Shown here: positions 24,517 to 48,273 of the stretch, piece by piece | Numbering within the stretch: position 1 is the first letter of the stretch | Layout of the letters: each line of letters starts with the position of its first letter | NCBI RefSeq assembly: GCF_900101115.1 | Contig: NZ_FNFU01000004.1 | Span: forward strand, 62,001 to 126,000 | Source of the DNA: Cryobacterium psychrotolerans | GTDB taxonomy: Bacteria; Actinomycetota; Actinomycetes; Actinomycetales; Microbacteriaceae | Length of the DNA: 64,000 bases | Reading direction: 5' to 3' | Position numbers and translations under genes: made by a program | Notes under the pieces: generated by a model | Told to the model about the DNA's origin: nothing | Database searches by the model: none | The model's input: the letters and a program-made list of their open reading frames with translations, nothing else

Positions 24517-24581
24517 CCCGCGAAACCGCACTTGTGCGCGTTATGAACGCGTTTTAGTGCGCACAACTGCGGTTTCGCGGG
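24517..24581 (+). repeat. 65-nt palindromic 3'-end element, copy A (after purU)
   Basis: The arms begin CCCGCGAAACCGCA and end TGCGGTTTCGCGGG, giving a stem of about 27 bp with an 11-nt loop. It follows the purU stop by 13 nt, in plus orientation as judged by the loop (TTATGAACGC, then TTTTA). Two inner stem pairs are G-U on the plus-strand RNA. There is no T-tract. Four sister copies lie in this window. Confidence 0.9.
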
Positions 24582-24617
24582 GAGTCGGTGACGGGACAGG
24601 GTCGGTAGGATTGGCGG

Positions 24618-24971
24618 GTGAAAGAGACAGGCGAGACCACGATCGGCCCCAACGACGTCCTGAGGTTCCTGCTGGAGCTCTTCGCCTTCGTCAGCCTCGG
24701 CTTCTGGGGGTTCGCCGCGTGGCCGCTGCCCTGGCCCGGCGTGCTCGTGGGCATCCTGGCGCCGGCCTTCGCGATTGTGCTCTGGGGCCTGTTCCGCTCG
24801 CCCAAGGCCGTGTTCCGGCTCGACCCGTTCGGCAAGGCCGTCGTCGAGATCGCCGTCTTCGGTGCGGCGGCACTGGCCTGGTGGGACCTCGACCAGCCCG
24901 TCGTCGCAGCGGTCTTCGCGCTCGTCGCCACGGTCAGCGGCGTCATCTCCGGCCGCAAGGAACTCAGCTGA
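24618..24971 (+). CDS. DUF2568 (YrdB-like) membrane protein
   Basis: The 117-aa protein has four membrane segments and the family pattern LRFLLELFAF near the N-terminus, then FRSPKAVFRL between segments. The role of the family is unknown. It overlaps the convergent MFS gene at 24964 by 8 bp (tail to tail). Confidence 0.78.
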   Translation: MKETGETTIGPNDVLRFLLELFAFVSLGFWGFAAWPLPWPGVLVGILAPAFAIVLWGLFRSPKAVFRLDPFGKAVVEIAVFGAAALAWWDLDQPVVAAVFALVATVSGVISGRKELS

Positions 24972-26172
24972 CGCGCGTCTCCCGCGGCATCCGCATCGCG
25001 TAGGCGGACGTCGCCAGGAACAGCACCGCCCCCACCGCGAACGCGGCCGGGTAGGACAGGGTGTCGGCGAGCAGGCCCGCGACCAGCGGCCCGACGATGG
25101 CGCCGGCGTCGGCGAACATCGAGAACACGGCGACCGGCCGCCCCCCGGATGCCCCGGCCGCGTCCCCGACCGCCGCGGCCGGCGCGGTCCCCATGAACGC
25201 CGCCGCCACCCCGTACAGGCAGAGCAGGCCGGTGAGCAGCCAGATGTTGCCCGCGAAGGGTACGGCCAGGATCGTCACGGCGGCGAGCGCGAAGGCCCCG
25301 ATCATCGCCGGCCGGCGGCCGACCAGGTCGACGAACCGGCCTGCCGGGCCGAGCGCCAGCGTCTGGGCGACCGCCGCGGCGGCGAAGGCGAGGCCCGTCC
25401 ACGAACTGGGACCCTTGAGCACCTCGACGACGAGCACGGGGATGAGGGAGTTGCGCACGCCGAACGAGGTCCAGCCCTGCGAGAAGTTGGCCAGGCAGGC
25501 GGCGCGGAAGCGGCGGTCGCGAAGCACCGTGCGGAACGGGATGCGATCGGCCTGGGCGCCGGAACCGGCGGCGGCGGCGGCGCGGGTGGCCGGGCGCAGC
25601 AGGACGAGGCCGACCAGGCCGGCGACCGCGAGGGTCGCCGCGTAGAAGAAGAACGGGGCGGTCAGCGAGATCGTGGCCAGCAGCCCGCCGAGCGCGGGGC
25701 CGGCCATGCCGCCGATCAGGAAGCCGCCCTGGTAGAAACCGATCGCCCTGGCCCGGATGCCGGGCGAGGTCGAACCGAGCAGCAGCGTCATCGCCGACAC
25801 GGTGAACATGGCCGAGCCGATGCCGCCGACACCGCGGAGCAGGAGCAGCTGCGGGTAGTCCTGGGCGATGCCGACCAGCCCGCTGGACACGGCGACGATT
25901 CCGATCCCGACGGCCAGCGTCGTGCGCTCGCCCCACCAGTCGATGAAGCGCGGGCAGAACGGGCTGGCGACCAGCCGCATCAGGGCGAAGGCCGAGACGA
26001 CGGCCCCCACCTCGACATAGCCGACTCCGAAGCTGCGCACGTACACGGGCAGCACCGGCACGACCACGCCGAACCCGACCATGACGAAGAACGCGATGAC
26101 GCCGAGCACGTAGACGTCACGGGAGAAGCGGGGCCTCACCGGCCGAGCTCGTCGCATCCCCTCTCGTCGCAT
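24964..26172 (-). CDS. MFS transporter
   Basis: The protein is about 400 aa with twelve predicted helices. Motif-A-like RFIDWWGERT follows TM2 and GRFVDLVGRRP lies after TM8. It resembles multidrug or metabolite exporters; the substrate is unknown. The start is ambiguous: a perfect 15-bp tandem duplication repeats the ATG with its GAGGGG (ATG at 26172 and 26157), so two equivalent starts five codons apart exist. Confidence 0.8.
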   Translation of the reverse strand: MRREGMRRARPVRPRFSRDVYVLGVIAFFVMVGFGVVVPVLPVYVRSFGVGYVEVGAVVSAFALMRLVASPFCPRFIDWWGERTTLAVGIGIVAVSSGLVGIAQDYPQLLLLRGVGGIGSAMFTVSAMTLLLGSTSPGIRARAIGFYQGGFLIGGMAGPALGGLLATISLTAPFFFYAATLAVAGLVGLVLLRPATRAAAAAGSGAQADRIPFRTVLRDRRFRAACLANFSQGWTSFGVRNSLIPVLVVEVLKGPSSWTGLAFAAAAVAQTLALGPAGRFVDLVGRRPAMIGAFALAAVTILAVPFAGNIWLLTGLLCLYGVAAAFMGTAPAAAVGDAAGASGGRPVAVFSMFADAGAIVGPLVAGLLADTLSYPAAFAVGAVLFLATSAYAMRMPRETRVS

Positions 26173-26178
26173 CCCCTC
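26149..26178. repeat. Perfect 15-bp tandem duplication of a translation start
   Basis: TCGTCGCATCCCCTC occurs twice in a row (26149-26163, 26164-26178). On the minus strand each copy contains GAGGGG immediately followed by ATG. Because 15 is a multiple of three, the MFS frame is preserved and simply gains five codons. Confidence 0.9.
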
Positions 26179-26206
26179 AGGTTACGGTGTGCGCGGCAGG
26201 CAGAGA

Positions 26207-26246
26207 GAGAGGCGGCGACGGATGTTGCCTTCCGTCGCCGCCTCTC
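26207..26246 (-). terminator. Strong terminator hairpin of the S8 protease gene
   Basis: A perfect 16-bp stem (26207-26222 with 26231-26246) surrounds an 8-nt loop. It starts 23 nt downstream of the protease stop on the minus strand and is followed there by a TC-rich tail. It also separates the protease from the MFS gene start. Confidence 0.8.
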
Positions 26247-26269
26247 CGCTAGTGCTGGTTCGGTTGGTG

Positions 26270-29200
26270 CTAGTTCTTCACCGACACGATCGTCGAGAAG
26301 CCGGAGGTGCCGTAGCGCACCAGCCCCAGGTAATCGGTCCCGGAAGTCAGCCCGGACCACGACGCCGTGTACTGCGTTTCGATGCCCTGGACACCGTCGA
26401 TGGAGGCCGGGACCGTGAAGGTTCCGACGCCGCCGTCCGGCATGACCGAGAAGCTGGTCAGGTCGTAGGTGTCGTTGCCGCTGAAGACCGACACGATGAC
26501 CTGGTAGTACCCGGCGATCGGGTTCATCAGGTCGACGTGTTCGTCCGTCGCCGCCGTGGCCGACTGCCAGCCATCGACCGCGGTGCCGCCCTTGCCGTCC
26601 AGCCGGTAGACGATGAGGTCCAGGTCGGCGGCATCGGTCAGCGAGTCGAGGTCGAAGCGCTGCAGCGCCGTCCCCGCCGGAACCTGCACGTTGAAGGTGA
26701 TCTCCGTGCCGGCGACTCCGTTACCGCTGTAGGCCTTGCCCGGGCCGCCCTTCTTCTCTTTGAGCTGCACGCCGGCCGCGAGGCCGTCGGTCGTCAGGGC
26801 GATGGGGCCGGTCGAACCCGGCGTCACGGCGATCTCCACGGAGCCGGACACGCCGGTTCCGTTGGCGGAACCGGGCGCCTCGATCGTGACGGGCTTGACC
26901 GCCAGCGGGCTGTGCACCACGGTGGTGCCGCTCGTCCAGTTCAGCGAACCGGTCGCGAACGTGTCGAGGGGCGCCGTGGTGCGGGTGAACGTCACCGTGT
27001 AGGACTTGACCTGGTTGGCCGAGTCGAACACGAGCTCCGCCGGTGAGGTCACCGCGGTGATGCCGTTGAGTCCGATCACCGTGGGGGTGAAGGTGCCCGC
27101 CTGCGTGGACGTCACCGTGCGGGTGACCGTCTCCGCCTTGGTGAGGGATCCGATGCCGATGGACGCCAGGTTGAGGTTCGACGGGTCGATCGCCGCGACA
27201 TCGTCCGAGCCTTGCCAGGTGTAGCCGGCGCCCTTGATGAAGGACCACCAGTCGTCCGCGCCGTTGAGGTAGACGAAGCCCGGGTTGAAGAACTTCGTCG
27301 GGTCGACGTGGCCCGCCCCCTGGGTGAACGGGTCGGTCACTGCTCCGCCGGTCGCATTCTTCGTGTCGTAGGCGGTGGTCATGAACGCCGACTTCACCTC
27401 GGCCGGGCTGGCCGTGGGCTTCTCACCGAAGTACAGCGCGGCGAGACCGGCCATGTGCGGCGACGACATCGACGTTCCGGACAGGAACTTGTACGTGCCG
27501 GCGTCGCCCGCGGCGTTCGCGCCGCCGGCCAGGATGGCGACACCGGGGGCCGAGATGTCCGGCTTGATGATGTCGCTGCCGTCGGCCAGGACCGGTCCCC
27601 GCGAGGAGAATCCGGCAACCTGCGGCGTAGCCGGCGTCGTGCCGAGTTCGTTGCCCGGCGTGAGCGTCACCGTCGCACCGGCGGTGCCGGCGTAGGCGAA
27701 GGCCGTGGCGTAGGCGTCGCCGTTCAGGTGCACGGACGGAACCGAGTGCTGGTCCAGGTCGAGCGAACTCGACGACGGGTTCACCAGCACCATGCCGATA
27801 CCACCGGCGCGCTTGACCTCGGCCGACTTGTCGACGCGGGCGTACACGCCGCGTGCGCAGAAGACGATCTTGCCGGCCACCTTGGTCGGGTCGAGCGAAC
27901 CCGGTCCGCAGAGCAGCGGGTCGACGCCGCGGCGGGCCGCGACGAGGTCGCCGCGCACCAGGGAACCGGTCACACCGGTCGTCGGGACCGTGATCGAGCC
28001 ACCGGCGAACTTCGCGCCGCTGCCGAAGGTGGCGGTGGCCTCGTAGCTCGGGATGGTGCTGGCCGCGACGGTGGTGATCCACGGTGAGGCGTTGTCCAGC
28101 GTCGACGCCGCCGAGCCGGAGTTACCGGCCGAGGCTGCGACGAAGATGCCGGCGGATGCCGCGCCGAGGAAGGCCATGTCGGTGGCGGACACCGTGGTCT
28201 GGGCCGCTCCGCCGCCGATGGAGAAGTTGATCACGTCAACGCCGTCCTTGGTGGCCTGGTCGATCGCGGCGACGAGGTCGCTGGTTGCGCATCCGTCGTC
28301 GTCCTGGCTGACCGCGTCGGGACCCGACCAGCAGACCTTGTATGCGGCGATCTTGGCTGCCGGAGCGACACCCGAGATGGTGCCGAAGTCGATGCCGCCG
28401 ACGGATGCCGCGACCGCGTGGTTGCCCACCGCGGTGCTGCCGGTGTGCGAACCGTGTCCGTCGCCGTCTCGCGGGGAGACGTACTCGCCGACGTCGGCGC
28501 TGCCGATCTGCGAGGCGGCGAAACCGTTGACGTAGTACCGGGCTCCGACGATCTTGGTGCTGCAGTCGGCGGCGGTGAACTGCTCGCCGGTGACACAGGC
28601 GCCGGTAAAGGTGCCCCCGTCGGACTTGGCGAAGCTGATGCTGCCGTCGGCCGTGCGGTACGGCGCGGCGCCGCTGGCCGTGCCCAGCGGAGCGCCGGTG
28701 AACGAGGCATTCTCCGGCGCGATGCCGGTGTCGACGATGCCGACGACGACGCCGGCGCCTGCCGTGGCGACGCCGCCCGTGGACTCCCAAAGACCGCCGA
28801 GGCCGTCGGCCTTGCCGAGGCCGAGGAACTCGGTCGAGGACTGCGCCGTGATCTGGCGGATCGAGTCCTTCTCCAGCGAGAGCACGGCACGGTTGGCGTA
28901 GAGCGTGGCGGCCTGGGCCGCGGTGAGGGTGGCAGCGAAGCCGTTGATGGCAGTCGTGTAGGAGTAGTCGATGCTCACGCCCGCGGCCGCCGCGATCTTC
29001 TTCTGCTGGGCCTTGAGGTGGCCGGCGTACGCCTTCGAGTCCTTCGACCGGGCGTCGAGCTGCTTGCCCTTGGCCGGCTTCGTGGCCGCGAAACCGTTGA
29101 CCCCGCCGGAGTACGTGGCGACAGCGCTGGCCGCCAGGGTGACCATGTAGCGGCCGTCCTCGAAGCTCGCGGACGGCTTGGCCGCCGCCGCGCTGGTTGT

Positions 29201-29356
29201 GGGCTGGGCCACGGCCGTTGCAGCGGTTCCGCCGAGAAGGGCCGCAGCGGCCACCATCCCGACCGTCAGTGTGAGGGCGGTCGCGCTGCGGAGCAGCGCG
29301 CGGCTTGATCGTGGTTCGTGGCCCGAGGTGCTCGGTCGCCGGGTGCGTAAGGTCAC
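26270..29356 (-). CDS. Secreted S8 (subtilisin-like) serine peptidase
   Basis: The product is about 1028 aa from the GTG at 29356; a TTG at 29425 would extend it. The signal peptide is long and twin-Arg-free, ending near AVAQP. An I9 propeptide-like region follows. The catalytic residues lie in VDTGIAP (Asp), GHGSHTGS (His) and GTSMSSPHMAG (Ser). A PA domain is inserted before the Ser motif, and Fn3-like C-terminal domains follow. It has no sortase motif or membrane anchor and is probably released into the medium. Neither start has a clear ribosome-binding site. Confidence 0.9.
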   Translation of the reverse strand: MTLRTRRPSTSGHEPRSSRALLRSATALTLTVGMVAAAALLGGTAATAVAQPTTSAAAAKPSASFEDGRYMVTLAASAVATYSGGVNGFAATKPAKGKQLDARSKDSKAYAGHLKAQQKKIAAAAGVSIDYSYTTAINGFAATLTAAQAATLYANRAVLSLEKDSIRQITAQSSTEFLGLGKADGLGGLWESTGGVATAGAGVVVGIVDTGIAPENASFTGAPLGTASGAAPYRTADGSISFAKSDGGTFTGACVTGEQFTAADCSTKIVGARYYVNGFAASQIGSADVGEYVSPRDGDGHGSHTGSTAVGNHAVAASVGGIDFGTISGVAPAAKIAAYKVCWSGPDAVSQDDDGCATSDLVAAIDQATKDGVDVINFSIGGGAAQTTVSATDMAFLGAASAGIFVAASAGNSGSAASTLDNASPWITTVAASTIPSYEATATFGSGAKFAGGSITVPTTGVTGSLVRGDLVAARRGVDPLLCGPGSLDPTKVAGKIVFCARGVYARVDKSAEVKRAGGIGMVLVNPSSSSLDLDQHSVPSVHLNGDAYATAFAYAGTAGATVTLTPGNELGTTPATPQVAGFSSRGPVLADGSDIIKPDISAPGVAILAGGANAAGDAGTYKFLSGTSMSSPHMAGLAALYFGEKPTASPAEVKSAFMTTAYDTKNATGGAVTDPFTQGAGHVDPTKFFNPGFVYLNGADDWWSFIKGAGYTWQGSDDVAAIDPSNLNLASIGIGSLTKAETVTRTVTSTQAGTFTPTVIGLNGITAVTSPAELVFDSANQVKSYTVTFTRTTAPLDTFATGSLNWTSGTTVVHSPLAVKPVTIEAPGSANGTGVSGSVEIAVTPGSTGPIALTTDGLAAGVQLKEKKGGPGKAYSGNGVAGTEITFNVQVPAGTALQRFDLDSLTDAADLDLIVYRLDGKGGTAVDGWQSATAATDEHVDLMNPIAGYYQVIVSVFSGNDTYDLTSFSVMPDGGVGTFTVPASIDGVQGIETQYTASWSGLTSGTDYLGLVRYGTSGFSTIVSVKN

Positions 29357-29485
29357 TTGTGGTGTCCAATCCGTTCGTCGTTGAATGGCATGCTGCCCCC
29401 CGGCCGAGGGACGTGCACGAATCAAAAACTAGCCGATGATCGGTGCATTGTGTCGACAATCACCCCCGTACTGGGGGCATGACGC

Positions 29486-31387
29486 TCAATCCCTGGCGAA
29501 GGAGGGTGCAGCGCGCCCAGGCACCGCCACGGCGGAGCGCGCGGCATCCCGCCGGCCGCCGATCGCGCGCAGGGCGTTCAGGATCGTGGCCAGGTCGACG
29601 AGTTCCTGGGCGAGCGCCCCGGCGGTGGCCGGGATGAACCCGAACGCGGCCGCCACCATGAGGCCCAGGCTCAGGATGATTCCCAGCCAGATGCTCTGCA
29701 GTGCGATCCGGATCGTGTCCTGCCCGATGGCGACGGCGCGCGCCGTGCGGGACAGGTCGTCGAGCAGGATGACGACGTCGGCCGATTCGCTGGCGGCCGT
29801 CGCACCCCTGGCTCCCATCGCGATCCCGATGTCGGCGACCGCGAGCACCGGAGCGTCGTTGACGCCGTCGCCCACCATGATGACCGGGCGGCGGGAGATC
29901 GCCTTCACGGCGTTCACCTTGTCGCCCGGCAGGCAGTCGCTCTGCACGCGAGTGATGCCGACCAGCCCCGCAATGTGCTCCGCCGTCGGCCGGGCATCCC
30001 CGGTGAGCATGACGGTGTCGCGCACCCCGCGGGCCGCGAATGCAGCGATCGTGGCCTTCGCGTTGTCGCGCAGCCGGTCGCTGGCCACGAGGCTCCCGGC
30101 GAACTTCCCGTCGACGGCCACGTAGATCGCGAGTTCGCCGCCGTCGAGCGGCGTGGCGGCGGCATCCGGAGCACGGTCGATGATGAACGACAGCTTGCCG
30201 ACCGAAACCTCGCGTTCGCCGAAGCGGGCGACCACCCCGCGAGCGGCGACTTCGCCGGCCTGCTCGGTGCTCGTGAGCTCCACGCCCTGGTCGCGGGCGG
30301 CCGCGATGACGGACGCCGCGAGCACGTGGGAGGAGTACTGCTCGGCGGACGCCGCGAGCGCGAGCACCTCGCGCTCCGTGAACGGATGCTCCGGGCGCAC
30401 GGCGACGATGGTCGGCTGGCCGTGGGTGAGCGTGCCGGTCTTGTCGAACACGACGGTGCGGGCGCGGGCGAGCTTCTCGAGCACGCCGCCGCCCTTCACG
30501 ATGATGCCGTTGCGGGCGGCGCGGCTCATGCCGCCCATGAACGCGACCGGCGCCGAGATCAGCAGCGGGCACGGGGTGGCGACGACGAGCACCTCGGCGA
30601 AACGGGCCGGATCTCCGCTGAAGAACCAGGCGAGGCCCGCGATGGCCAGCGACACGGCCGTGAACGGCACCGCGTAGCGGTCGGCGAGGCGCACGACGGG
30701 CGCCTTGCTGGCCGCCGCTTCCTCGACCAGCGCGATGATCTGCTGGTACTGGCTGTTCGAGGCGGTCGCGGTCGCCCGGACGGTGGCCGCGGCCGTTCCG
30801 TTGATGGATCCGCTGAGCACGGGATCGCCGCTGCCGCGCTCGACCGGGAGGCTTTCCCCGGTCAGGGACGACTCGTCGAAGGACGCCGTCTCGGACACGA
30901 GGTCGCCGTCCACGGGGACGATTTCGGCCGGGCGCACCAGGATCACGTCGCCGACCTGCACCCGGCCCGCCGGGACATCCTCGACCTCTCCCTGCCCGTC
31001 TCGCACCCGGTGCGCGATCTGCGGTGCGCGCTTCAGCAGGGAGTCCAGCTCCCGCTTGGCGCGGCTGACCGCGTAGTCCTCGAGGGCGGCTCCGCCGGAG
31101 AGCATGAGCACGATGATGAGCGTGGCGATGTACTCGCCGACGAGCACGGTGGCGACGATGGCCGTGATGGCGAGGAAGTCGATGCCGAAGCTGCCCCGGC
31201 GCAGCTGCCTGACCATGCCGACGGCCTCGATCCCGGCGACGAACAGGCCGAAGCCACTGAAGAGCCACCGCACCCCTGCGGTCTCACCGCTCAGCCAGAG
31301 GACCACCCCGACCACGGCGACCAGGATGGTGGCCGCGACGATCGGATACCGGCGTGCGGCATGGGCAAAGGTTCGCATGCTCAACAT
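29486..31387 (-). CDS. P1B-type heavy-metal-translocating ATPase
   Basis: The pump is 633 aa from the ATG at 31387 (GGGGGA just upstream; a second ATG at 31378). The frame stays open far into icd, but this upstream part is not protein-like. Motifs are the membrane metal site TPCPLL, phosphorylation site DKTGTLTHG, TGDA and GDGVNDAP. The N-terminal HMA metal-binding domain is absent and the CPx motif is CPL rather than CPC. It could export Cd, Zn, Co or similar ions; the ion is not decided. No metalloregulator gene is adjacent. Confidence 0.88.
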   Translation of the reverse strand: MLSMRTFAHAARRYPIVAATILVAVVGVVLWLSGETAGVRWLFSGFGLFVAGIEAVGMVRQLRRGSFGIDFLAITAIVATVLVGEYIATLIIVLMLSGGAALEDYAVSRAKRELDSLLKRAPQIAHRVRDGQGEVEDVPAGRVQVGDVILVRPAEIVPVDGDLVSETASFDESSLTGESLPVERGSGDPVLSGSINGTAAATVRATATASNSQYQQIIALVEEAAASKAPVVRLADRYAVPFTAVSLAIAGLAWFFSGDPARFAEVLVVATPCPLLISAPVAFMGGMSRAARNGIIVKGGGVLEKLARARTVVFDKTGTLTHGQPTIVAVRPEHPFTEREVLALAASAEQYSSHVLAASVIAAARDQGVELTSTEQAGEVAARGVVARFGEREVSVGKLSFIIDRAPDAAATPLDGGELAIYVAVDGKFAGSLVASDRLRDNAKATIAAFAARGVRDTVMLTGDARPTAEHIAGLVGITRVQSDCLPGDKVNAVKAISRRPVIMVGDGVNDAPVLAVADIGIAMGARGATAASESADVVILLDDLSRTARAVAIGQDTIRIALQSIWLGIILSLGLMVAAAFGFIPATAGALAQELVDLATILNALRAIGGRRDAARSAVAVPGRAAPSFARD

Positions 31388-31458
31388 TCTTCCCCCGGCA
31401 GGCGCCCCTCGCCAGCAAGGACAGGCTCTCCTGACCGATGCCCGGCCCCGGACGCGGA

Positions 31459-31488
31459 ACGGCCCCGACCTGGTGAGGTCGGGGCCGT
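31459..31488 (-). terminator. Terminator hairpin of icd
   Basis: A perfect 13-bp GC-rich stem (31459-31471 with 31476-31488) has a GGTG loop. It begins 15 nt downstream of the icd stop on the minus strand. There is no strong T-tract, as usual in actinobacteria. Confidence 0.75.
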
Positions 31489-31503
31489 CGCCGTGCGAAA
31501 CGG

Positions 31504-32718: not shown

Positions 32719-32874
32719 TGGTTCTCCTCAAAAAGTAGGTGGGCCGCGAATGGCCGACGCCAAGCTTACTAGAGGAGTGCAAGTATCTTGACATCGAGAG
32801 ACTTTGCCGAGAGTTCATCCTGTGCGTACGGCTGCCGACTACCGACCGGACCGGCCGCAGGTTAGCCTGTTCCC

Positions 32875-33327
32875 ATGGCGACGCTACGACTGGAAGAACT
32901 GTCCGCACGCAACATCGTTGCGGCCAATAACCTGAGCCTGAAACCCGGCCAGGAGCAATTCATCGCACCGGTCTCCTATTCCGTAGCGGCCACCGTCATC
33001 AACCCGGCCACCGCCTGGCAGCGCGTGGTGCTCCAGGGCGACGACGTCGTCGGCTTCATTCACGGCAACTTCGACCCCGAAGCCGAGCACGAGGAGTTCC
33101 GCGCGTGCATCTGGCGGATCAACGTCGACGCGGCGGCCCAGGGCAAGGGCGTGGGCAAGTTCGCCGCGGAGGCCCTCGCCGAGGAGGCCCGCTCGCGCGG
33201 GTTCGACCACATCAACGTGATCTGGGAGCCGGGCGAAGAAGGCCCGGAGGAGTTCTTCCACCGGATCGGCTTCCGGGACGTCGGGCAGACCCAGTACGGC
33301 GAAACCATCGGCGCGCTGCAGCTGTAG
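32875..33327 (+). CDS. GNAT family N-acetyltransferase
   Basis: The 150-aa protein has the acetyl-CoA-binding pattern in VDAAAQGKGVGKFAAEAL (motif A, about residues 84-101) and a C-terminal GFRDVGQTQYGE typical of diamine/spermidine-acetyltransferase-like GNATs. The substrate is unknown. The next gene starts 3 nt after its stop, so the two are cotranscribed and probably translationally coupled. Confidence 0.83.
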   Translation: MATLRLEELSARNIVAANNLSLKPGQEQFIAPVSYSVAATVINPATAWQRVVLQGDDVVGFIHGNFDPEAEHEEFRACIWRINVDAAAQGKGVGKFAAEALAEEARSRGFDHINVIWEPGEEGPEEFFHRIGFRDVGQTQYGETIGALQL

Positions 33328-33329
33328 CG

Positions 33330-33644: not shown

Positions 33645-33666
33645 ACGCCGGCCGTACTAGTCTCGG

Positions 33667-39279: not shown

Positions 39280-39344
39280 CCCGCGAAACCGCAATTGTGC
39301 GCGTTAAAACACGCTCATATCGCGCACAACTGCGGTTTCGCGGG
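39280..39344 (-). repeat. 65-nt palindromic 3'-end element, copy B (after ddaH)
   Basis: The arms are the same as copy A, with one substitution in the arm (A for G). By its loop (TATGAGCG, then TTTTA read on the minus strand) it is oriented minus, like ddaH, whose stop lies 6 nt upstream. The arm substitution makes a G-U pair on the minus-strand RNA but an A-C mismatch on the other strand. Confidence 0.9.
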
Positions 39345-39350
39345 GGTGTG

Positions 39351-40121
39351 TCAACGCACCCGCACGCTGAGGCAGGTGACGCAGCCCTCGAGCTTCTCGA
39401 ATTCGGAGATGCCGACCGTGACGACGGTGTAGCCCAGCCCGCGGAACAGGTCCGCGCTGCGGGGCGCTGCGGACGACATGAGCACGGTCTGCTCGTCGAG
39501 CACGACGACGGCGGTGCCTTCGGCCTCCGGCACGGCCAGGAAACGATCGAACAGGCCCTCGTCGTCGACGAGCGGCGGGAAGCCGATGACGGTTCCGTCG
39601 GGCAGCGCGGTGACCGCGGTCTTCAGGTGCAGCGCGCCGCTGACGGGCACGGCAACCACGGTGTACCCGAGCGGGCCGACGATCGCGGTCAGCTGGCGCA
39701 CGCCCTCGGCGTTCGTGCGCAGGCTCCGGCCGACGTACACGGTGTTCCCCACCTTGAGCACGTCGCCGCCGTCGAGCGTGCCCGGCAGCTCGAGCCGGCG
39801 CACGGTGCCGCCGAGCCGGCGCACGGCCGCCTCCGCCCCGGCGCTCTCGCCGCGCCGGCTCTCGGCCCCCGGGCTCGTGACGACGGCCACGTCGCCGAAC
39901 ATGACGACGGCATCCTCGATGAAAACGGAGTCCGGAGCCTCGTCGGCCGGATCGACCTCTCGGGTCTCCCAGCCCGCGGCGGCGAGCGCCTCGACGTAGT
40001 CGCGCCACTGCGCGCGGGCCAGCTCCAGGTCGACCGGGGTGCGTTCGATGTGGGTCAGCTGCCCCGCGGCGAGGTTCGCGGCCGGCCTCCGGACCAGGGC
40101 AATGCGTCTCGCGTGCGTCAT
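39351..40121 (-). CDS. ddaH: Dimethylargininase (DDAH)
   Basis: The 256-aa guanidine-modifying enzyme hydrolyses dimethylarginine to citrulline and dimethylamine. The pentein-fold catalytic residues are visible: His in GALHLKTAV, the acidic FIEDAVVMFG region, and the C-terminal nucleophile Cys250 in VTCLSVR. Length and C-terminal Cys match bacterial DDAH rather than arginine deiminase (about 400 aa). It is flanked on both sides by 65-nt palindromes. Confidence 0.85.
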   Translation of the reverse strand: MTHARRIALVRRPAANLAAGQLTHIERTPVDLELARAQWRDYVEALAAAGWETREVDPADEAPDSVFIEDAVVMFGDVAVVTSPGAESRRGESAGAEAAVRRLGGTVRRLELPGTLDGGDVLKVGNTVYVGRSLRTNAEGVRQLTAIVGPLGYTVVAVPVSGALHLKTAVTALPDGTVIGFPPLVDDEGLFDRFLAVPEAEGTAVVVLDEQTVLMSSAAPRSADLFRGLGYTVVTVGISEFEKLEGCVTCLSVRVR

Positions 40122-40150
40122 CCCGTCAGCCTACTTCCCGCCGCTTCACC

Positions 40151-40215
40151 CCCGCGAAACCGCAGTTGTGCGCGTTATTCGGCGTTCATAACGTGCACGA
40201 CTGCGGAATCGCGAG
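40151..40215 (-). repeat. 65-nt palindromic 3'-end element, copy C (after amino-acid dehydrogenase)
   Basis: This is the most degenerate copy: one arm carries GGAATCGCGAG instead of GGTTTCGCGGG, so the outer stem has mismatches. Minus orientation is given by the loop TTATGAACGC, identical to copy A. It lies 12 nt after the dehydrogenase stop and 30 nt upstream of the ddaH start. Confidence 0.85.
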
Positions 40216-40227
40216 GGTGGTGCGGGG

Positions 40228-41307
40228 CTATTCGGCGGCGTCGAGGCGGGCTGCGGCGAGGCGCTCGGCTGCCTCCAGCGTCGTGATGCCCTGCGCGCGC
40301 GCATCCGTGAAGATGGTCGCGACGGTGTCGCCGATGGCGTCCACCCGGGCGGCGATGGCGTCGAGGTCGGCGCCCGGCTCGCCGGCGTACGCGAGGTAGA
40401 TCACGCCGCCCGCGTTGACGACGAAGTCGGGGGCCCAGAGGATGCCTCGGGCGTCCAGTTCGGCGGCGCCCTCGGACGACTCGAGCTGGTTGTTGGCGGC
40501 GCCGACGACGCCGAGCACATTGAGCTCGCCGATCACCTGCGGAGTGAGGACCCCGCCGAGGCCGCAGGGCACGAACAGGTCGGCCTGCACGCGGTGCGCT
40601 CCGGCCACGGGCACCCAGTCGGCGCCGAGTTCCTCGGCCAGCTCGCGCTTGTCGAGGTTGACGTCGGTCACGGTCAGCTGAGCTCCGGCGGCGGCGAGCG
40701 CCCGGGCGAGGCGGCCGCCGACCTGGCCCAGGCCGGAGATCACGATGTGGCGTCCGGACACCTCACGGCTGCCGAACAGCGCCTCGAGGGTGGCGACGAG
40801 GCTCGCGTAGACGCCGGCGGCGGTCGCGTCGGCCGGTTCGCCCACGCCCCCGCTGGATGCGGGCAGGCCGCAGACGTTCGGGGTGCGCTCGGCGACGATG
40901 GCCATGAGCTCGGCGCTCGTGCCGACATCCTCAGCGGTCATGTAGGCGCCGTTCAGGCTTTCAATGGCGTCGCCGAGGTCGAGCATGGCGTCGCGCTTCT
41001 GCTCGTCGGTGAGCACGGTGCCGACCGGCAGATAGATGACGGACTTGCCGCCGCCGCGGGTGAGGCCCGCGGCCGAGTTCTTGAGCGTCATCGCAGCCGA
41101 GAGGCGCAGCGCATCGGCGACGGCTTCGGTCCAGTTCTCGTACTGCCAGACTCGGGCGCCGCCGAGGGCCTGGCCGAGGCGGGTGGAGTGCACGGCGACC
41201 GTGATGACGAGCCCGGAGCGGACGCCCGTGGTGATGAGCACGCGTTCGTGCGTGAACGGGATTCCGGCGAGAGCATCCAGCGACAGTGATGGTTGCGAGA
41301 GGGTCAT
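40228..41307 (-). CDS. Leu/Val/Phe-type amino-acid dehydrogenase
   Basis: The product is 359 aa from the ATG at 41307 (AGGAAG about 9 nt upstream); the upstream in-frame extension is unsupported. It is of the Glu/Leu/Phe/Val dehydrogenase fold: the catalytic lysine is in LTRGGGKSVIYLP (about residue 83), the Rossmann motif GLGQVGGRLA near 180, and NAGGVIYLAY near 290. It oxidatively deaminates a branched-chain or aromatic amino acid with NAD. The exact substrate is open. Neighbour ddaH suggests amino-acid catabolism. Confidence 0.85.
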   Translation of the reverse strand: MTLSQPSLSLDALAGIPFTHERVLITTGVRSGLVITVAVHSTRLGQALGGARVWQYENWTEAVADALRLSAAMTLKNSAAGLTRGGGKSVIYLPVGTVLTDEQKRDAMLDLGDAIESLNGAYMTAEDVGTSAELMAIVAERTPNVCGLPASSGGVGEPADATAAGVYASLVATLEALFGSREVSGRHIVISGLGQVGGRLARALAAAGAQLTVTDVNLDKRELAEELGADWVPVAGAHRVQADLFVPCGLGGVLTPQVIGELNVLGVVGAANNQLESSEGAAELDARGILWAPDFVVNAGGVIYLAYAGEPGADLDAIAARVDAIGDTVATIFTDARAQGITTLEAAERLAAARLDAAE

Positions 41308-41394
41308 GAATGGTTCTTCCTGTGGTGGCCTTGTGGGCGGTGTGTGTCGCCTGATTGTGTCGGGCGGATACCTCAACCCTAAAGCCTTCCCCTC

Positions 41395-41459
41395 CCCGCG
41401 AAACCGCAGTTGTGCGCGCTAAAACCCGCGCATAACGCGCACAACTGCGGTTTCGCGGG
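41395..41459 (-). repeat. 65-nt palindromic 3'-end element, copy D (after purH)
   Basis: The arms are perfect to the consensus. It touches the purH stop codon (41460-41462) directly. The minus orientation follows from the loop TTATG...TTTTAG. One inner pair is U-G on the minus-strand RNA and would be C-A on the plus strand. Confidence 0.9.
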
Positions 41460-43145
41460 CTAGTGGAAGAAGTGGCGCTCGCCGGTGAAGTACATGGTCA
41501 CGCCGGCCAGGGCCGCGGCGGCGATGACCTCCTCGTCGCGCACCGAGCCGCCGGGCTGCACGACCGCGGTGACGCCGGCGTCGAGCAGCACCTGCAGGCC
41601 GTCAGCGAAGGGGAAGAACGCGTCCGAGGCCGCGACCGAGCCGGCCGCGCGGTCGCCGGCGCGCAGCACGGCGAGGTGGCACGAGTCGACCCGGTTGACC
41701 TGGCCCATGCCAACGCCGACGGATGCCCCGCCGCGCGCCAGCAGGATGGCGTTCGACTTCACGGAGCGGCAGGCCTTCCACGCGAACTCGAGGTCGGCGC
41801 GAGTGGCCTCGTCGGCTTCCGGGCCCGCCACGAGCGTCCAGCCAGCCGAGCTGAACTCCTCGAATGTGTCGGACTCCTGCACCAGCAGGCCGCCGGAGAT
41901 CTGGCGCAGCTCGAGTGAGGAGCGGCGGTAGTCGGCCGGCAATTCCAGGAGGCGGATGTTCTTCTTGGCGCGGAGGAGTTCGAATGCGGCCGGCTCGAAT
42001 CCCGGCGCGACGAGCACCTCGGTGAAGATCTGGCTGACCGTCTCGGCCATGCCGAGGGTGACCGTGCGGTTGGCGGCGATCACGCCGCCGAACGCGGAGA
42101 CCGGGTCGCAGTCGTGGGCCCGCCGGTGGGCGGACGCAATCGCATCCGGCGCCTTGCCCGCGGCGACGGCGATGCCGCAGGGGTTGGCGTGCTTGATGAT
42201 CGCGACGGCCGGCTGGTCGAAGTCGAAGGCGGCGCGCACCGCGGCATCCGCGTCGACGTAGTTGTTGTAGGACATCTCCTTGCCGTGCAGCTGCAGGGCC
42301 TGCGCGATTCCCTGCCCGCCCTCGCCGGCGTAGAGCGCGGCAGACTGGTGGGCGTTCTCGCCGTAGCGCAGCACGGCGCTGCGGGTGGCCTCGATGACCA
42401 GGGCGTCCGGGAAGAACGGGATGTCGATGTCCTCGTCGGCGCCGGTCACGGCGTCGAATGCTTCAAGGATGTCTTCGGCGAGCGTCTCGGTGTCGTCGGC
42501 CCACTGGTCGTACACGTTCTCGGTGAACCAGGCCGACACCGACAGGTCGTAGCCGGCGGTGTGCTCGAAGGCGAGCGAGGCGAGCTTCTGGCGCTGGCGC
42601 AGCGTCGTGCCGCCGGTCCCGACCGCGGCGATGATCTCGGGGTAGTCCTCCGGGTCGACCACGATCGCGACGTTCGCGTGGTTCTTCGCCGAGGCGCGCA
42701 CGAGGGCGGGGCCGCCGATGTCGATCTGCTCGATCACGTCGGCCGGGGCAGCGCCGGACTGCACGGTCTCGACGAACGGGTACAGGTTTACCACGACGAG
42801 CTCGAAGGCGGCGATGCTCAGGTCCTTCAGCTGGTCCTCATGCGCCTCGAGGCGCAGGTCGGCCAGGATGCCGGCGTGAACGGCGGGGTGCAGCGTCTTC
42901 ACCCGGCCGTCGAGGGATTCCGGGAAGCCGGTGACCGTGGAGACATCCGTCACCTCGTGGCCGGCCGCGCGAATGGTGGCCGCCGTCGACCCGGTCGAGA
43001 CGATTTCGACTCCCGCGGCGACGAGCGCGTCGGCGAGGTCGATCAGGCCGGCCTTGTCGCTGACCGAGATGAGGGCGCGCCGCACGGGGATGACGTCCCG
43101 GTCGCGGTAGAGGCTCGCTGCGGTGCTCTGTGTGTGGCCGCTCAT
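41460..43145 (-). CDS. purH: Bifunctional AICAR formyltransferase/IMP cyclohydrolase PurH
   Basis: This enzyme carries out the last two steps of IMP synthesis (561 aa). The N-terminal IMP cyclohydrolase begins [12 protein letters not shown], with [13 protein letters not shown]. The C-terminal formyltransferase has KHANPCGIA and the catalytic DPVSAFGG region; AFFPFADG is near the end. The ATG at 43145 overlaps the purN stop by four bases (ATGA). The frame is open another 770 bp upstream, but that part is purN antisense-frame noise. It consumes 10-formyl-folate, whose level the ZTP riboswitch at glyA reports. Confidence 0.95.
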
Positions 43146-43735
43146 GTGTGGGAAAGCTCCTTGAGGTTGACGTGTCCGTTGGCGATGTCGAGCACTGCCT
43201 GCACCAGCAGGCGACGCTCGACGGTCTTGATGCGTTCGTGCAGGGTGGTCTCGGTGTCGCCCGCCAGGACGGGCACCCGTTCCTGCGCGATGATCGGTCC
43301 CTCGTCGACGCCGTTGTCGACGACGATGAGGCTGGCCCCGGTCTGGCCGGCCCCCGCGGCCAGGGCGTCCCGGACGCCGTGGGCGCCGGGGAACTCGGGC
43401 AGGTAGGCCGGATGCGTGTTGACCAGGTTCGGGGAGAGCGCGGCGACGACGCGCGGCGGCAGCAGGCGCATCAGGCCGCTGAGCACGACGAGGTCCGGCT
43501 GCCACTGCTGGATCTGCGCGAGGAGTTCGTCTCCCCAGGCCTCCCGGTCGGCGTGCGAGGAATAGGGGACGGTGAAGGTGGGCACGCCGAACTCTTCGCC
43601 GAGGGCGAGTCCGTCGGCGTCGCGGTCGGCGCCGATCGCGACGACCCGCGCGGGAAACTCGGCGTCCTCGGACGCCTCGAGCAGGGCGCGGAGGTTGGAT
43701 CCCCCGCCGGAGATCAAAACGACCAGTGACAGCAC
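43142..43735 (-). CDS. purN: Phosphoribosylglycinamide formyltransferase PurN
   Basis: The 197-aa enzyme formylates GAR with 10-formyl-tetrahydrofolate in purine synthesis. N-terminal ISGGGSNL binds the phosphate, [12 protein letters not shown] carries the catalytic Asn-His pair, and VDEGPII carries the Asp. GTG start. It is translationally coupled to purH by an ATGA overlap, and the DUF6350 gene ends 9 nt upstream of it. Confidence 0.95.
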
Positions 43736-43744
43736 CCTTCGAGC

Positions 43745-44968
43745 TTACCGTTTCGCGAAGGAGCGCCCTTCGGCCCGTACGATCGCCGGGCGCCCACCGA
43801 CCAGCATGCCGAGGCCGGCGGCCAGGCCGACCTCCACAGCGGCGAGCGCGCCGACCAGGAACGGGTCGGGTCCGACCATCGACAGGCGGCCGGGGCCGAT
43901 CGCACCGGCCGACCACCAGGCGAGCAGCCCGAGCAGGATGCCGGCCACGAGCCCCATCGACAGTCCGGTGACCAGGCGCTCCGCGGCGCCCGGCAGCGGG
44001 GCATCCGTCCCCTCGGACCTGCGGCGGGTCATCCGTGCGGCGCCGAAGCCGATCAGCACGGGCACGACCAGACCGACGAACCCGAGTTCGAGGGTGCCGT
44101 GCGGCAGCGCGCCGAGGATCGGGAGCCCGGGGACCGCGCCGAGGGCGGTCCCGACCGGCGACAGGCTCGTGCCGACGCCGACGGCGATGCCCGGGCCGAC
44201 GAACCAGGCCGCGGCCCAGATGACGAGGTTCGGGATGAGCGCGAGCTGCGCCAGGGTGAGAATGATGCCGCCCAGGACCCCGGACTGCAGGGTTTCGTAC
44301 AGGCCGATGATGGTCGCGTAGTTGATCAGGGTGAGCACGGCGACGGCGACTGCGGAGACCCCGATCACGCCGACGGCCGCCGCGCTCCCGCCGCGGAGCG
44401 CCCCCGCGACGACCGCGCGGGCCGTCTTCGGCAGGTCCGCGAACCGCTCACGGATCCCGCGGGCGCCGGAGCCCAGCTCCGAGCCCACCAGCACGCCGGA
44501 CGCGTAGACCAGGGTCGGCAGGAGCATCCCCTGCGGCACGGAGGGACGCACGAGCTCGGTGCCCGCCGAGAGGGTGACCAGGGTGGCGAGCAGGCCGTAG
44601 GCGGAGATCGCGGAGAGCACGCCGACCCAGCGGTGCGGGGTCGCGGCGGCGCGGCGGCCCGTTCGCACCCCGAGCACGACGGCCGGCAGGGCGACGCCGA
44701 GGAAGGCGATGGTGACCGGGAACGGCTCGAGGGCGGCCGGCATCCCGAGCGCGGAGACGACGGCGGGGCCGAGCTGCACGTGGAGGTCCACCCCGTTGCC
44801 GAGCAACCACGCGTCGGCGGCGGCCCGCCAGAAGACGAGCCAGTCGAGGCCGAGGTCCACCTGCGTCGCCCAGAGCACGGTCAGGGGCACGAGCGCGATG
44901 CCGATGCCGATGGCTACGACAATGAGCGCCTCGAGCGCGGCGAGCAGGGCTGTCGTTAAGCGGTTCAT
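43745..44968 (-). CDS. DUF6350 family integral membrane protein
   Basis: The 407-aa protein has about ten hydrophobic segments and a short cytoplasmic tail. This position, between sucCD and purNH, is characteristic of an actinobacterial membrane protein of unknown function (DUF6350). It probably forms one transcription unit with purN-purH (9 nt apart). No catalytic motif is visible. Confidence 0.8.
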
Positions 44969-45042
44969 CGGCCTCTGAGCCTACCCGCCGATCCGGCCGC
45001 ACCGGGCGCGCGCGTGCGGTGCGTGCGAATTCGACGGAGATT

Positions 45043-45147
45043 CTACTTGCGGTACGGCTCCTTGATCATCGCGACGATCGCCGCGAGGCCGAGAGTCGCG
45101 CCGACGAGAACGAATCCGGTGAGAAAGAGGGTGAGAAAAGTCGCCAT
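45043..45147 (-). CDS. Small single-span membrane protein (34 aa), probably leaderless
   Basis: The ORF encodes a peptide beginning MATFLTLFLTGFV, a single hydrophobic helix of about 22 residues, and ending with a basic tail EPYRK. No ribosome-binding site precedes the ATG, but a -10-like CATAAT ends 7 nt upstream, which fits leaderless transcription. It lies between sucD's terminator and DUF6350. I do not recognise a named family. Confidence 0.6.
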   Translation of the reverse strand: MATFLTLFLTGFVLVGATLGLAAIVAMIKEPYRK

Positions 45148-45154
45148 AGGAACC

Positions 45155-45160
45155 ATTATG
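45155..45160 (-). promoter_or_regulatory. Candidate -10 box of a leaderless transcript
   Basis: CATAAT on the minus strand ends 7 nt before the ATG at 45147, so transcription would start at or next to the start codon. No clear -35 box is seen, and the terminator hairpin at 45172-45197 occupies that region. Confidence 0.4.
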
Positions 45161-45171
45161 GCGCACGCGAA

Positions 45172-45197
45172 AGGGCCCGGCGATAACGCCGGGCCCT
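45172..45197 (-). terminator. Rho-independent-type terminator of the sucC-sucD operon
   Basis: A perfect 11-bp GC stem (45172-45182 with 45187-45197) encloses an ATAA loop (TTAT on the transcribed strand), followed on the minus strand by a short TTT. It starts 16 nt downstream of the sucD stop. Confidence 0.85.
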
Positions 45198-45213
45198 CTC
45201 ACTGGATGCTTGT

Positions 45214-46101
45214 TTACAGTGCGGCGAGAACCTCGCGCAGCAGGGTGGCGGTCTCGCTCGGCGTCTTGCCGACCTTGACCCCGGCGGCCTCAAGGGCCTC
45301 CTTCTTGCCCTGGGCGGTTCCGGCCCCGTTGGAGACGATGGCGCCGGCGTGGCCCATGGTCTTGCCCTCGGGGGCGGTGAAGCCGGCGACGTAGCCGACG
45401 ACGGGCTTGGTGACGTGCGCCCGGATGTAGTCGGCCGCCTTCTCCTCGGCGTCGCCGCCGATTTCGCCGATCATGACGATCGCCTTGGTCTCCGGGTCCG
45501 CCTCGAACGCCTCGAGGGCGTCGATGTGGGTGGTGCCGATGATGGGGTCGCCGCCGATGCCGATCGCGGTGGAGAAGCCGAGGTCGCGCAGTTCGTACAT
45601 CATCTGGTAGGTCAGGGTGCCCGACTTGGAGACGAGGCCGATCGGGCCCTTGCCGGTGATGTTCGCCGGCGTGATGCCGACGAGCGCCTCACCGGGGGTG
45701 ATGATGCCGGGGCAGTTCGGCCCGATGATGCGGGTCTTGTTGCCCTTTGCCTGGGCGTAGGCCCAGAACTCGGCGGAGTCCTGCACCGGGACGCCCTCGG
45801 TGATGATGACGAGCAGCGGGATGCCCGCGTCGATCGCTTCGATCACGGCGTCCTTGGTGAAGGCGGGCGGGACGAACGCGATGGAGACATCCGCGCCGGT
45901 CTTTTCCATCGCCTCGGCGACCGTGCCGAACACGGGCAGCTCGACGTCGCCGTGCACCACGGTGGTGCCGGCCTTGCGGGCGTTCACTCCGCCGACGACC
46001 TGGGTGCCGGCCTTGAGCATGAGGGCGGTGTGCTTGGTGCCCTCGCCGCCGGTGATGCCCTGGACGATGACCCTGGAGTCCTTGTTGAGGAAGATTGACA
46101 T
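45214..46101 (-). CDS. sucD: Succinate-CoA ligase alpha subunit SucD
   Basis: The 295-aa alpha subunit binds CoA and carries the phosphohistidine. CoA-binding [10 protein letters not shown] lies near residue 15, [12 protein letters not shown] in the middle, and the active-site [14 protein letters not shown] near 245. It forms succinyl-CoA synthetase with SucC, 11 nt upstream. The terminator follows 16 nt after the stop. Confidence 0.96.
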
Positions 46102-46112
46102 TCTCGGAATCC

Positions 46113-47282
46113 TTACTTCGCGGCGTGGGCGAGTTCGGCGGCCTTGGCGGCGCCCTCGTCCATCGTTGCGGCCAGTGTGACGAGCGGGTGGTTGGCCTCG
46201 GCCAGGATGCGGCGGCCCTCGTCGACGTTGTTGCCGTCGAGGCGCACGACGAGCGGCTTGTTCGCGGACGTGCCGAGTTCGGCGAGCGCGCCCACGATGC
46301 CCTTGGCGACGGCGTCGCAGGCGGTGATGCCGCCGAAGACGTTGACGAAGACCGACTTGACCTGCGGGTCGCCGAGGATGACGTCGAGGCCGGCAGCCAT
46401 GACCTCTGCGGATGCTCCGCCCCCGATATCGAGGAAGTTGGCCGGCTTCACTCCGCCGTGGTTCTCACCCGCGTACGCGACGACGTCGAGGGTGCTCATG
46501 ACGAGCCCCGCGCCGTTGCCGATGATGCCGACCTCGCCGTCGAGCTTGACGTAGTTGAGGTCGTTCTCCTTGGCCTTCGCCTCGAGCGGGTCGGCCGCCG
46601 CGGCGTCTTCGAGGAACGCGTGCTTCGGGTGGCGGAAGCCGGCGTTCTCGTCGAGCGTGACCTTGCCGTCGAGGGCGATGATGTCGCCTTCTTCGGTGAG
46701 CACGAGCGGGTTGACCTCGACCAGGGTCGCGTCTTCGCCCGTGAACACGTTGTAGAGCTGCACGAAGATCGGTGCGACCTTGTCGACGAGCTCGGCCGGG
46801 AACTTCGCGTCGATCGCGATCTCCCGGGCCTTGGCCAGGTCGATCCCGGCGAGCGGGTCGATCGACACGTAGGCGAGCGCCTCCGGCTTTTCGACCGCCA
46901 GGACCTCGATCTCCACGCCGCCTTCGTAGCTGGCGAGCGAGAGGTACGAGCGGTTCGCCCGGTCGAGCAGCACGGAGAAGTAGAACTCCTGCGCGATGCG
47001 CGCGCCACCGGCGACCATGACCCGGTTGACGGTGTGGCCCTTGATGTCGAGGCCGAGGATGGCGCGGCCAGCTGCTTCCGCGTCATCCGGGGTCTTCGCG
47101 ACCTTGACGCCGCCGGCCTTGCCTCGGCCGCCGACCTTGACCTGCGCCTTGACGACGACGACGCCGCCCAGCTTCTCGGCGGCCGCGCGCACCTCTTCGG
47201 GTGTGTCCGCGACGATTCCCGGAAGCACCGGGACTCCATACTGCTCAAACAGGTCTCTTGCCTGGTATTCGTAAAGATCCAC
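46113..47282 (-). CDS. sucC: Succinate-CoA ligase (ADP-forming) beta subunit SucC
   Basis: The product is 389 aa from the GTG at 47282, with GGAAGAG upstream; an ATG 36 nt further up has poorer support. The protein begins with [15 protein letters not shown], the typical N-terminus. [15 protein letters not shown] is the ATP-grasp region, and the nucleotide/succinate part contains [13 protein letters not shown]. The 216 bp upstream of the start, shared with the divergent VIT-family gene, hold both promoters. Confidence 0.95.
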
Positions 47283-47498
47283 GCTGCTCTTCCAATCCGC
47301 GTCATAGCGTTCGTGCATGGTGAGGGGTGTCGGGCGACGCAGTCGATGTCGGATTTAGCTCGACGTCAAGACATACGACCCGGTCAAACTCTACAGTCCG
47401 GGCCAAACAGTCGCTAATCGCCGCCGTCGGCAGGCGGCCGGGCCGGGGCATACCGCGCGTCGCTGGCGCGGGCATCCCCGGGGTGATTTGCTGTACCC

Positions 47499-48209
47499 AT
47501 GACTGAACAAGCACATGGCGTAGACCCGCACACGGCCGGACACGCGTCCCGGCTCAACTGGCTCCGCGCCGGGGTGCTCGGCGCCAACGACGGCATCGTG
47601 TCCGTCGCCGCGCTGGTCGTGGGTGTCGCCGCCGCGACGACGGATTCCGCTGCAATCCTGATCGCGGGCGTCGCGGCCCTGCTCGCCGGCGCCATCTCGA
47701 TGGCCCTGGGCGAGTACGTGTCGGTGAGCAGCCAGCGGGACACCGAACGGGCGCTGATCGCCAAGGAGCGCTACGAACTCGAGCACATGCCCGAACAGGA
47801 GCTCGCCGAACTCGCCGGGCTGTACGAGGCGAAGGGGCTGAGCCCCGCGACGGCCAGGCAGGTGGCGGTCGAGCTGACCGAGCACGACGCACTCGGAGCC
47901 CACCTCGAGGTGGAGCTCCACATCGGCACCGAGGAACTGTCCAACCCGTGGCACGCCGCGTTCGCCTCGGCGCTCGCCTTCACCGTCGGCGCCATCCTGC
48001 CGCTCCTGTCGGTGCTGCTCCCGCCGCCCGAGTGGCGCGTGCCGGCCACGTTCCTCTCCGTCGTCATCGCCCTGGTCATCACCGGTTGGCTCAGCGCCTA
48101 CCTCGGCGGAAGCCCGAAGGGCCGCGCCATCGGCCGGATCGTGGTCGGAGGCGGCCTCGCCCTCGTCGTCACCTACGCGATCGGCGCCCTGATCGGCACC
48201 GCCGTCTAA
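47499..48209 (+). CDS. VIT1/CCC1 family Fe/Mn transporter
   Basis: The 236-aa protein has five predicted helices, with the family signature GANDGIVSVAALVVGVA in TM1 and ISMALGEYVSVSSQRDTE after TM2. A cytoplasmic, Glu-rich metal-binding segment follows (about 95-145). It probably exports or sequesters Fe2+ or Mn2+. A 65-nt palindrome starts at its stop codon. Confidence 0.88.
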   Translation: MTEQAHGVDPHTAGHASRLNWLRAGVLGANDGIVSVAALVVGVAAATTDSAAILIAGVAALLAGAISMALGEYVSVSSQRDTERALIAKERYELEHMPEQELAELAGLYEAKGLSPATARQVAVELTEHDALGAHLEVELHIGTEELSNPWHAAFASALAFTVGAILPLLSVLLPPPEWRVPATFLSVVIALVITGWLSAYLGGSPKGRAIGRIVVGGGLALVVTYAIGALIGTAV

Positions 48210-48273
48210 CCGCGAAAGCGCAGTTGTGCGCGTTATACGTGCCGTTTAGCGTGCACAACTGCGGTTTCGCGGG
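48209..48273 (+). repeat. 65-nt palindromic 3'-end element, copy E (after the VIT-family gene)
   Basis: The first base of the element is the last base of the TAA stop. Orientation is plus, like the gene. Two inner pairs are G-U/U-G on the plus-strand RNA. One outer pair (position 10) is a G-G mismatch. It ends 22 nt before the DUF3054 start. Confidence 0.9.

Follow-up and report, generated by a model that had tools for sequence, protein, structure and literature searches.

A 64,000-nt stretch of the Cryobacterium psychrotolerans genome (contig NZ_FNFU01000004.1, positions 62,001 to 126,000; hereafter the window) holds five copies of a 65-bp palindrome at the ends of genes, all belonging to a repeat family (family 1) that is dispersed over the genome. 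Palindromes of this kind are associated with genes for a subfamily of Vsr/EDxHD-like nucleases, both in this genome and in others. The palindrome is probably a non-autonomous mobile DNA repeat and the recognition site of such a nuclease. From sequence comparison we infer that the nuclease, a probable DNA-cutting enzyme, would bind and cut at the repeat, leading to its copying and movement, with possible effects on the host.

Nuclease genes and their flanking palindromes

In the C. psychrotolerans assembly (3.25 Mb in 45 contigs), the nuclease gene enclosed by two palindromes lies outside the window on the minus strand (C18:68506-69447, equivalent to L049:3007-3948). It encodes a protein of about 300 aa whose C-terminal domain resembles Vsr/EDxHD homing endonucleases and gives a weak Pfam match to PF18741 (E 0.0013). 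Genes enclosed by two family 1 elements include two that look endonuclease-like, the one at L049 and another at L065 that matches PF18741/PF04480. The DUF559-type open reading frame at L065 (2974-3528) has a pair of elements around it, but it had no match to the seed hidden Markov model (HMM) described below, and this neighbor is perhaps degenerate or unrelated. Some PF04480 and PF18741 matches in other genomes also adjoin palindromes, and a pair of palindromes surrounds the nuclease gene in C. tagatosivorans (L275), in genomes G021 (L271), G019 (L270), and G008 (L349), and in two genomes of other genera (G146, L267; G361, L335). In these seven units, L049 included, the arms on either side agree with, or are very similar to, those of a palindrome dispersed in the same genome. 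The occurrence of nuclease genes between matched palindromes points to an origin of the repeat at the DNA level, as a mobile element.

The association was quantified with a subfamily HMM built from five flanked proteins, which has 24 members in 51 sources chosen from loci with Pfam matches (first set). A palindrome was counted as adjacent if it was at least 45 nt long and no more than 250 nt from the gene. By this criterion, 19 of the 24 members adjoin a palindrome and 15 are flanked on both sides, to which a looser scan adds the upstream palindrome of L317. Among 20 other DUF559/MTES_1575 loci from the same fetch, one (L350, on both sides) has a palindrome anywhere (p=5e-7 against the subfamily), and with the five flanked seeds removed 14/19 members have a palindrome (p=1e-5). 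In a second set of 33 further distinct homologs, for which the gene start was taken from the HMM match and the same size and distance criterion applied, palindromes are present at 11 of 18 nearer homologs (E<1e-25) and at 2 of 15 distant ones, one of these two sitting in a cut locus (L375); three of the 33 are flanked on both sides (L288, L313, L361). For comparison, a palindrome of at least 45 nt is present in 4 of 28 unrelated Cryobacterium loci, each about 2.6-4 kb long. Nuclease identity and arm similarity vary together (Mantel rho 0.41, p=0.001, 16 loci).

Within the first set, the upstream palindrome lies 48-157 nt before the start codon and the downstream palindrome between -45 and +84 nt from the stop. 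When upstream arms were compared with downstream arms at 12 loci, 9 gave an agreement of 0.83-1.0; scores are low for L335 and L352, whose arms are nevertheless visibly common over different extents, and at L340 two different palindromes surround the nuclease. Pairs of palindromes were also observed at two DUF559/MTES_1575 loci outside the subfamily, L350 (1797-1857 and 3093-3153; G008) and L303 (1310-1382 and 2435-2505; G048), and these suggest that the association may be wider than the subfamily.

Family 1 is one of four palindrome families in C. psychrotolerans, each beside a nuclease gene (L049, L317, L318, L316). Family 2 (GTTGCGGANAAAGTRCCTTC) has 27 exact-pattern copies in this genome, and all 27 have an 11-nt center where 5-20 nt were allowed; two palindromes of this family (L317:1136-1186 and 2274-2324) flank their own nuclease gene (L317:1257-2243). 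Further palindromes with GGTCGAGTTC-like arms occur at L061:3920-4067, L090:3810-3903, and L078:1160-1516, where no nuclease was identified. Homologs of the nuclease were found at E<=1e-10 in 89 of 296 sampled Actinomycetota genomes, and palindrome-bearing loci among those returned fall into sample families f1, f6, f17, f19, f20, and f21. Searched at the protein level, phages gave one record with a nuclease homolog and plasmids gave four. All four of the records inspected (from these five, leaving aside a Nonomuraea record that covers 38% of the query) show palindromes next to the gene under a scoring looser than that of the first set, and in two of them palindromes with identical arms stand on either side. 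The palindrome beside the homolog on Arthrobacter plasmid NZ_AP024648.1 (L398:2428-2493) contains GCAGTTGTGCGCG, the core of the family 1 arm.

An AlphaFold 2 model of the L049 protein, built with 24 sequences, has a pLDDT of 90 and a pTM of 0.88. The best meaningful match of this model in a Foldseek search of the PDB is the catalytic domain of I-Bth0305I (3r3p; E 0.046), with a TM-score of 0.74 by target length and a root-mean-square deviation of 3.4 Å over about 100 columns; mitoribosome matches with poor deviations are also among the top matches. Residues E207, H257, and D267 are present in 24/24 subfamily members and D240 in 23/24, and these may correspond to residues of I-Bth0305I. Ratios of nonsynonymous to synonymous substitution between C. 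psychrotolerans and C. tagatosivorans are 0.19, 0.31, and 0.15 for three nucleases. By these measures the nuclease is under purifying selection, with invariant residues of catalytic type. According to a review (PMC3943268), the EDxHD homing endonuclease I-Bth0305I dimerizes on a DNA site almost 60 bp long.

Dispersal and conservation of the 65-bp repeat

A covariance model built from 14 copies, with arm patterns used in parallel, puts family 1 at no fewer than 84 distinct places in the C. psychrotolerans genome, all exactly 65 nt long; a search for both inner arms with up to three mismatches gave 80 matches, against 0 for a reversed-pattern control. On 68 sources around the copies, the model returned 168 matches at E<=0.1, which are the same 84 places on both strands, again of 65 nt, and with default filters no truncated or degenerate copies were found there at this threshold. 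The copies have the ends CCCGCG..CGCGGG and a minimum spacing of about 0.7 kb. Exact 15-mer matches, compared by eye, contained no solitary half-sites of a full-size insertion sequence outside the 84 elements.

Genes around the copies were called with a purpose-written codon-usage gene finder, and the null for their placement was random insertion into the intergenic sequence of loci that had been selected for repeats; it thus describes these neighborhoods and not the whole genome. In 70 of the 84 copies a facing stop codon is at most 30 nt away or overlaps the element, against 20.7% under this null (p=2e-34), and in 10 copies the end of the gene runs into the element. Convergent gene pairs surround 45 copies, co-directional pairs 37, and divergent pairs two, where convergent pairs account for 10% and divergent pairs for 32% of intergenic insertion points. 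The original prediction had taken the five window copies to be a dispersed mRNA 3'-end element, and the position behind stop codons that it expected genome-wide is strongly borne out. Its statement that the asymmetric center always lies on the mRNA strand survives as a bias. The tandem copies, 37 in all, comprise 21 in the sense and 6 in the antisense orientation (p=0.006) and 10 with a symmetric center.

These observations could be explained if the palindrome were a host element of mRNA 3' ends, a common bidirectional terminator or stabilizing hairpin kept by selection, with the link to the nuclease secondary. Four elements folded as RNA gave predicted hairpins of -43.6 to -56.3 kcal/mol, which fits such a role as do the proximity to stops, the excess of convergent pairs, and the sense bias. 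Nevertheless, we regard this explanation as unlikely. The sense strand 3' of the element has a mean of 1.65 T per 10 nt over 127 facing ends, and the U-tract sought there was not found, four or more T being present at 11 of the 127. Downstream genes start close behind some tandem copies. A terminator scan whose range included four elements flagged no terminator at any of them, but its loops were limited to 3-8 nt and the result is not counted as evidence.

The pattern of conservation bears on the same question. Across 168 half-sites, positions 3, 5-7, 12-13, and 18-20 are invariant and positions 4, 14, 16, 21, and 27 nearly so, while the variable positions include 1, 11, 15, 17, and 22. Deviations in the arms comprise 131 single changes, 13 paired changes (5 expected by independence), and 5 unpaired doubles. 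The excess of paired changes indicates that some compensation is present, as selection on an RNA hairpin would predict, but most changes are uncompensated, and single changes in tandem copies show no preference for pairing in RNA, with 17 G-U wobbles against 19 A-C mismatches and 32 others. All matches listed for C. psychrotolerans and C. tagatosivorans by a model that permits gaps are 65 nt long; palindromes in G001 vary slightly in length. Across 36 fixed-length pairs of copies from these two species, 4.9% of sites in the arms and 18.8% of those in the center differ. Given the fixed bases, the mostly uncompensated changes, the lack of preference for G-U over A-C, and the fixed length, the conservation is best read as that of two inverted 32-bp half-sites in double-stranded DNA, presumably recognized by a symmetric protein. 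The mRNA 3'-end reading of the original prediction thus stands as to position and fails to account for the missing U-tract and the DNA-like pattern of change; matched palindromes around nuclease genes and arms specific to each nuclease are likewise unexplained by it. At L085:2949 and L094:2960, the center appears inverted relative to C. tagatosivorans L121 and L117 while the arms are kept, a pattern that template switching within a hairpin would be expected to leave.

A DNA site need not be mobile, and the palindrome might instead be an operator or binding site through which the nuclease acts in chromosome organization, repair, or defense. The DNA-type conservation and fixed length, the purifying selection on the nuclease, the slower change of arms than of center, and the sites common to two species are all compatible with this. 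We hold it to be quite unlikely, because the sites between purH and ddaH are confined to one lineage (see below) and each nuclease has its own arm sequence, features that resemble spreading elements more than a conserved regulon.

Window copies, related species, and spread

Direct inspection of the window confirmed the coordinates and the exact length of 65 nt given for the five copies by the original prediction. It had also placed each of them behind a stop codon, as is the case for four; the fifth overlaps its stop. The copy at 24517..24581 (+) begins 13 nt past the stop of the plus-strand gene 23631-24503, annotated earlier as purU. Three copies are on the minus strand: 39280..39344, 6 nt past the stop of gene 39351-40121 (ddaH in the earlier annotation); 40151..40215, which has a symmetric center and lies 12 nt past the stop of gene 40228-41307, a member of the Glu/Leu/Phe/Val dehydrogenase family; and 41395..41459, 0 nt past the stop of gene 41460-43145 (purH in the earlier annotation), all three genes being on the same strand as their element. 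The copy at 48209..48273 (+) overlaps the final stop base of the plus-strand VIT1 gene (47574-48209). The flanking genes of all five are co-directional. A 65-bp palindrome of a different family, family 4, with perfectly matching arms (CCGCCGAACTGTGAG...; no strand assigned), occupies 59277..59341, and this family also adjoins nuclease genes, a second one in this genome (L316) and one in C. tagatosivorans (L321). An Rfam search of the window found one tRNA and a ZMP/ZTP riboswitch and nothing else; the riboswitch (RF01750, 22063-22151, minus strand) lies just 5' of the minus-strand gene 20737-22053.

The window copies at 24517, 39280, 40151, and 48209 each have an orthologous copy in C. tagatosivorans, and that at 41395 is also present in the C. 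tagatosivorans locus L176 and absent from 28/28 other fetched Cryobacterium loci. The dehydrogenase neighborhood as a whole contains three elements in C. psychrotolerans and C. tagatosivorans and in none of those 28 loci, where the best match still has at least 19 mismatches over 48 arm positions. A strong homolog was found in 35 other genomes, of which seven were not fetched, and contig ends cut nine of the 28 loci short. The three sites of the dehydrogenase region therefore differ in presence between orthologous positions, as in mobile repeats. The interval on the purH side of the dehydrogenase gene contains unrelated terminator-like hairpins in at least four related species (L177, L178, L187, L190), so that a role at host 3' ends is possible there. 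Palindromes in other Cryobacterium genomes are 65 nt or near that length and have different arms, but an outer CGCGARA is shared. A pattern for the outer part matched 16 of 398 Microbacteriaceae genomes, many of them once, and several of the single matches looked like chance by eye. Two exact 20-mer matches in betaproteobacteria were rejected, as the sequence there forms no palindrome and is coding by frame reading.

Several observations weigh against a mobile repeat recognized by the nuclease. Movement between C. psychrotolerans and C. tagatosivorans is not visible, since 46/46 mappable family 1 sites are occupied in both species; the comparison is biased in that the repeat itself was the means of fetching most C. 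tagatosivorans loci and mapping failed for 38 of the 84 sites, and within this bias it indicates no recent spreading between the two species. No target-site duplication was found at the 84 borders, with no excess of direct repeats for k=2-10 at five offsets. The association has exceptions in both directions. Five of the 24 subfamily members lack a palindrome next to the gene (in one case, L325, the locus stops at the end of a contig), as do 13 of the 15 distant homologs; G001 gives 28 model matches on both strands, or about 14 palindromes, while its subfamily nuclease (L347) is unflanked; and G048 and G069 have no subfamily nuclease among the loci examined. Conversely, palindromes occur outside the subfamily at the 1/20 loci mentioned above and anywhere in 5/38 loci without a subfamily match (L243, L312, L295, L297, L303), where L243 and L312 are one place, L065, and the 38 partly overlap the 20 controls; palindrome pairs also enclose ordinary genes (L268, L272, and some in C. 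psychrotolerans). Flanked proteins do not cluster on the protein tree (five changes, as in shuffles), so that flanking seems to be common to the subfamily as a whole, apart from scattered exceptions. Finally, no PDB match of the L049 model reached E<=0.001.

If the palindrome is nonetheless a mobile repeat, as we consider probable, the unit would be a pair of inverted 32-bp half-sites with a single base at the center, both half-sites being bound by a dimer of the nuclease. The enzyme would cut DNA, and repair of the break or strand transfer might copy the palindrome to new sites, sometimes together with the gene between two copies. Copies may settle or survive best just behind stop codons, where damage would be least. 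The hairpin could secondarily end or protect the transcript, such use by the host being possible but secondary. Were this mechanism correct, it would be a warning that hairpins common to many stop codons can be mobile DNA and not host terminators. It would also link a DUF559/MTES_1575-type nuclease subfamily whose role is unknown to a concrete partner and to a function open to testing. The many natural pairs of nuclease and target, diverging in specificity, would be of use in studies of the evolution of long-site DNA recognition.

Comparison with known systems

Integron attC sites were considered and rejected, as the palindromes are dispersed behind housekeeping genes and lack R-box-like ends. 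Intrinsic terminators likewise form strong hairpins behind stop codons; they differ from the palindrome in that a single sequence is here common to at least 84 places, with no U-tract and with DNA-type conservation. Miniature inverted-repeat transposable elements (MITEs) are short, non-autonomous inverted-repeat DNAs served by an enzyme in trans, as may be true of the palindrome. Unlike MITEs, no target duplication was seen, and the gene stands between two whole palindromes rather than two half terminal repeats.

On the side of the enzyme, the C-terminal domain falls within the DUF559/MTES_1575 superfamily (PF04480, PF18741), although the L049 match is weak. Palindromes accompany mainly one subfamily, in contrast to DUF559/MTES_1575 at large, where 19/20 and 33/38 other loci are without them. 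With I-Bth0305I (PDB 3r3p; PMC3943268), the nuclease shares a predicted Vsr-like catalytic fold, and its invariant or nearly invariant E, D, H, and D may have counterparts there. It differs from I-Bth0305I in being encoded by a free-standing chromosomal gene flanked by its presumed many-copy site and in having a separate N-terminal region. An exact-term search of open-license PMC text returned no paper linking such palindromes with DUF559 nucleases.

The closest parallel is with repetitive extragenic palindromes (REP), their REPIN arrangements, and the REP-associated tyrosine transposase (RAYT). As described in PMC2817692, these too are dispersed extragenic palindromes with several families per genome, whose cognate gene is flanked by two copies and in which repeat and enzyme diverge together. 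A cognate gene between two repeats is thus found here as well, with a different enzyme: a Vsr/EDxHD-type nuclease in place of a Y1 HUH transposase. REP repeats measure 20-40 bp and bear a GTAG/CGTC tag (PMC3733652); the palindromes here are 65 bp, and mostly 55-70 bp in relatives, with ends CCCGCG..CGCGGG and copies at least about 0.7 kb apart, and those linked to nucleases were found in Actinomycetes. That the repeat belongs to a REP/RAYT system of known type, with a tyrosine (HUH) transposase still to be found, would fit the layout of dispersed extragenic palindromes with a gene between two of them (compare PMC2817692), but is very improbable given the length of the elements and the absence of the RAYT transposase domain PF01797 from 25/25 genomes, C. 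psychrotolerans included, when 5/14 control genomes were positive. Having the layout of REP/RAYT, no RAYT, and another enzyme, the system is better described as a probable mobile palindromic repeat with a cognate nuclease. The chances seem about even that it represents a distinct class, in which long palindromes, a different one for each nuclease, are spread by a dimerizing homing-endonuclease-like Vsr/EDxHD enzyme in Micrococcales and further Actinomycetes, in parallel to and independently of REP/RAYT. This would suggest at least two origins for mobile palindromes served by an enzyme of their own, with unrelated nuclease folds.

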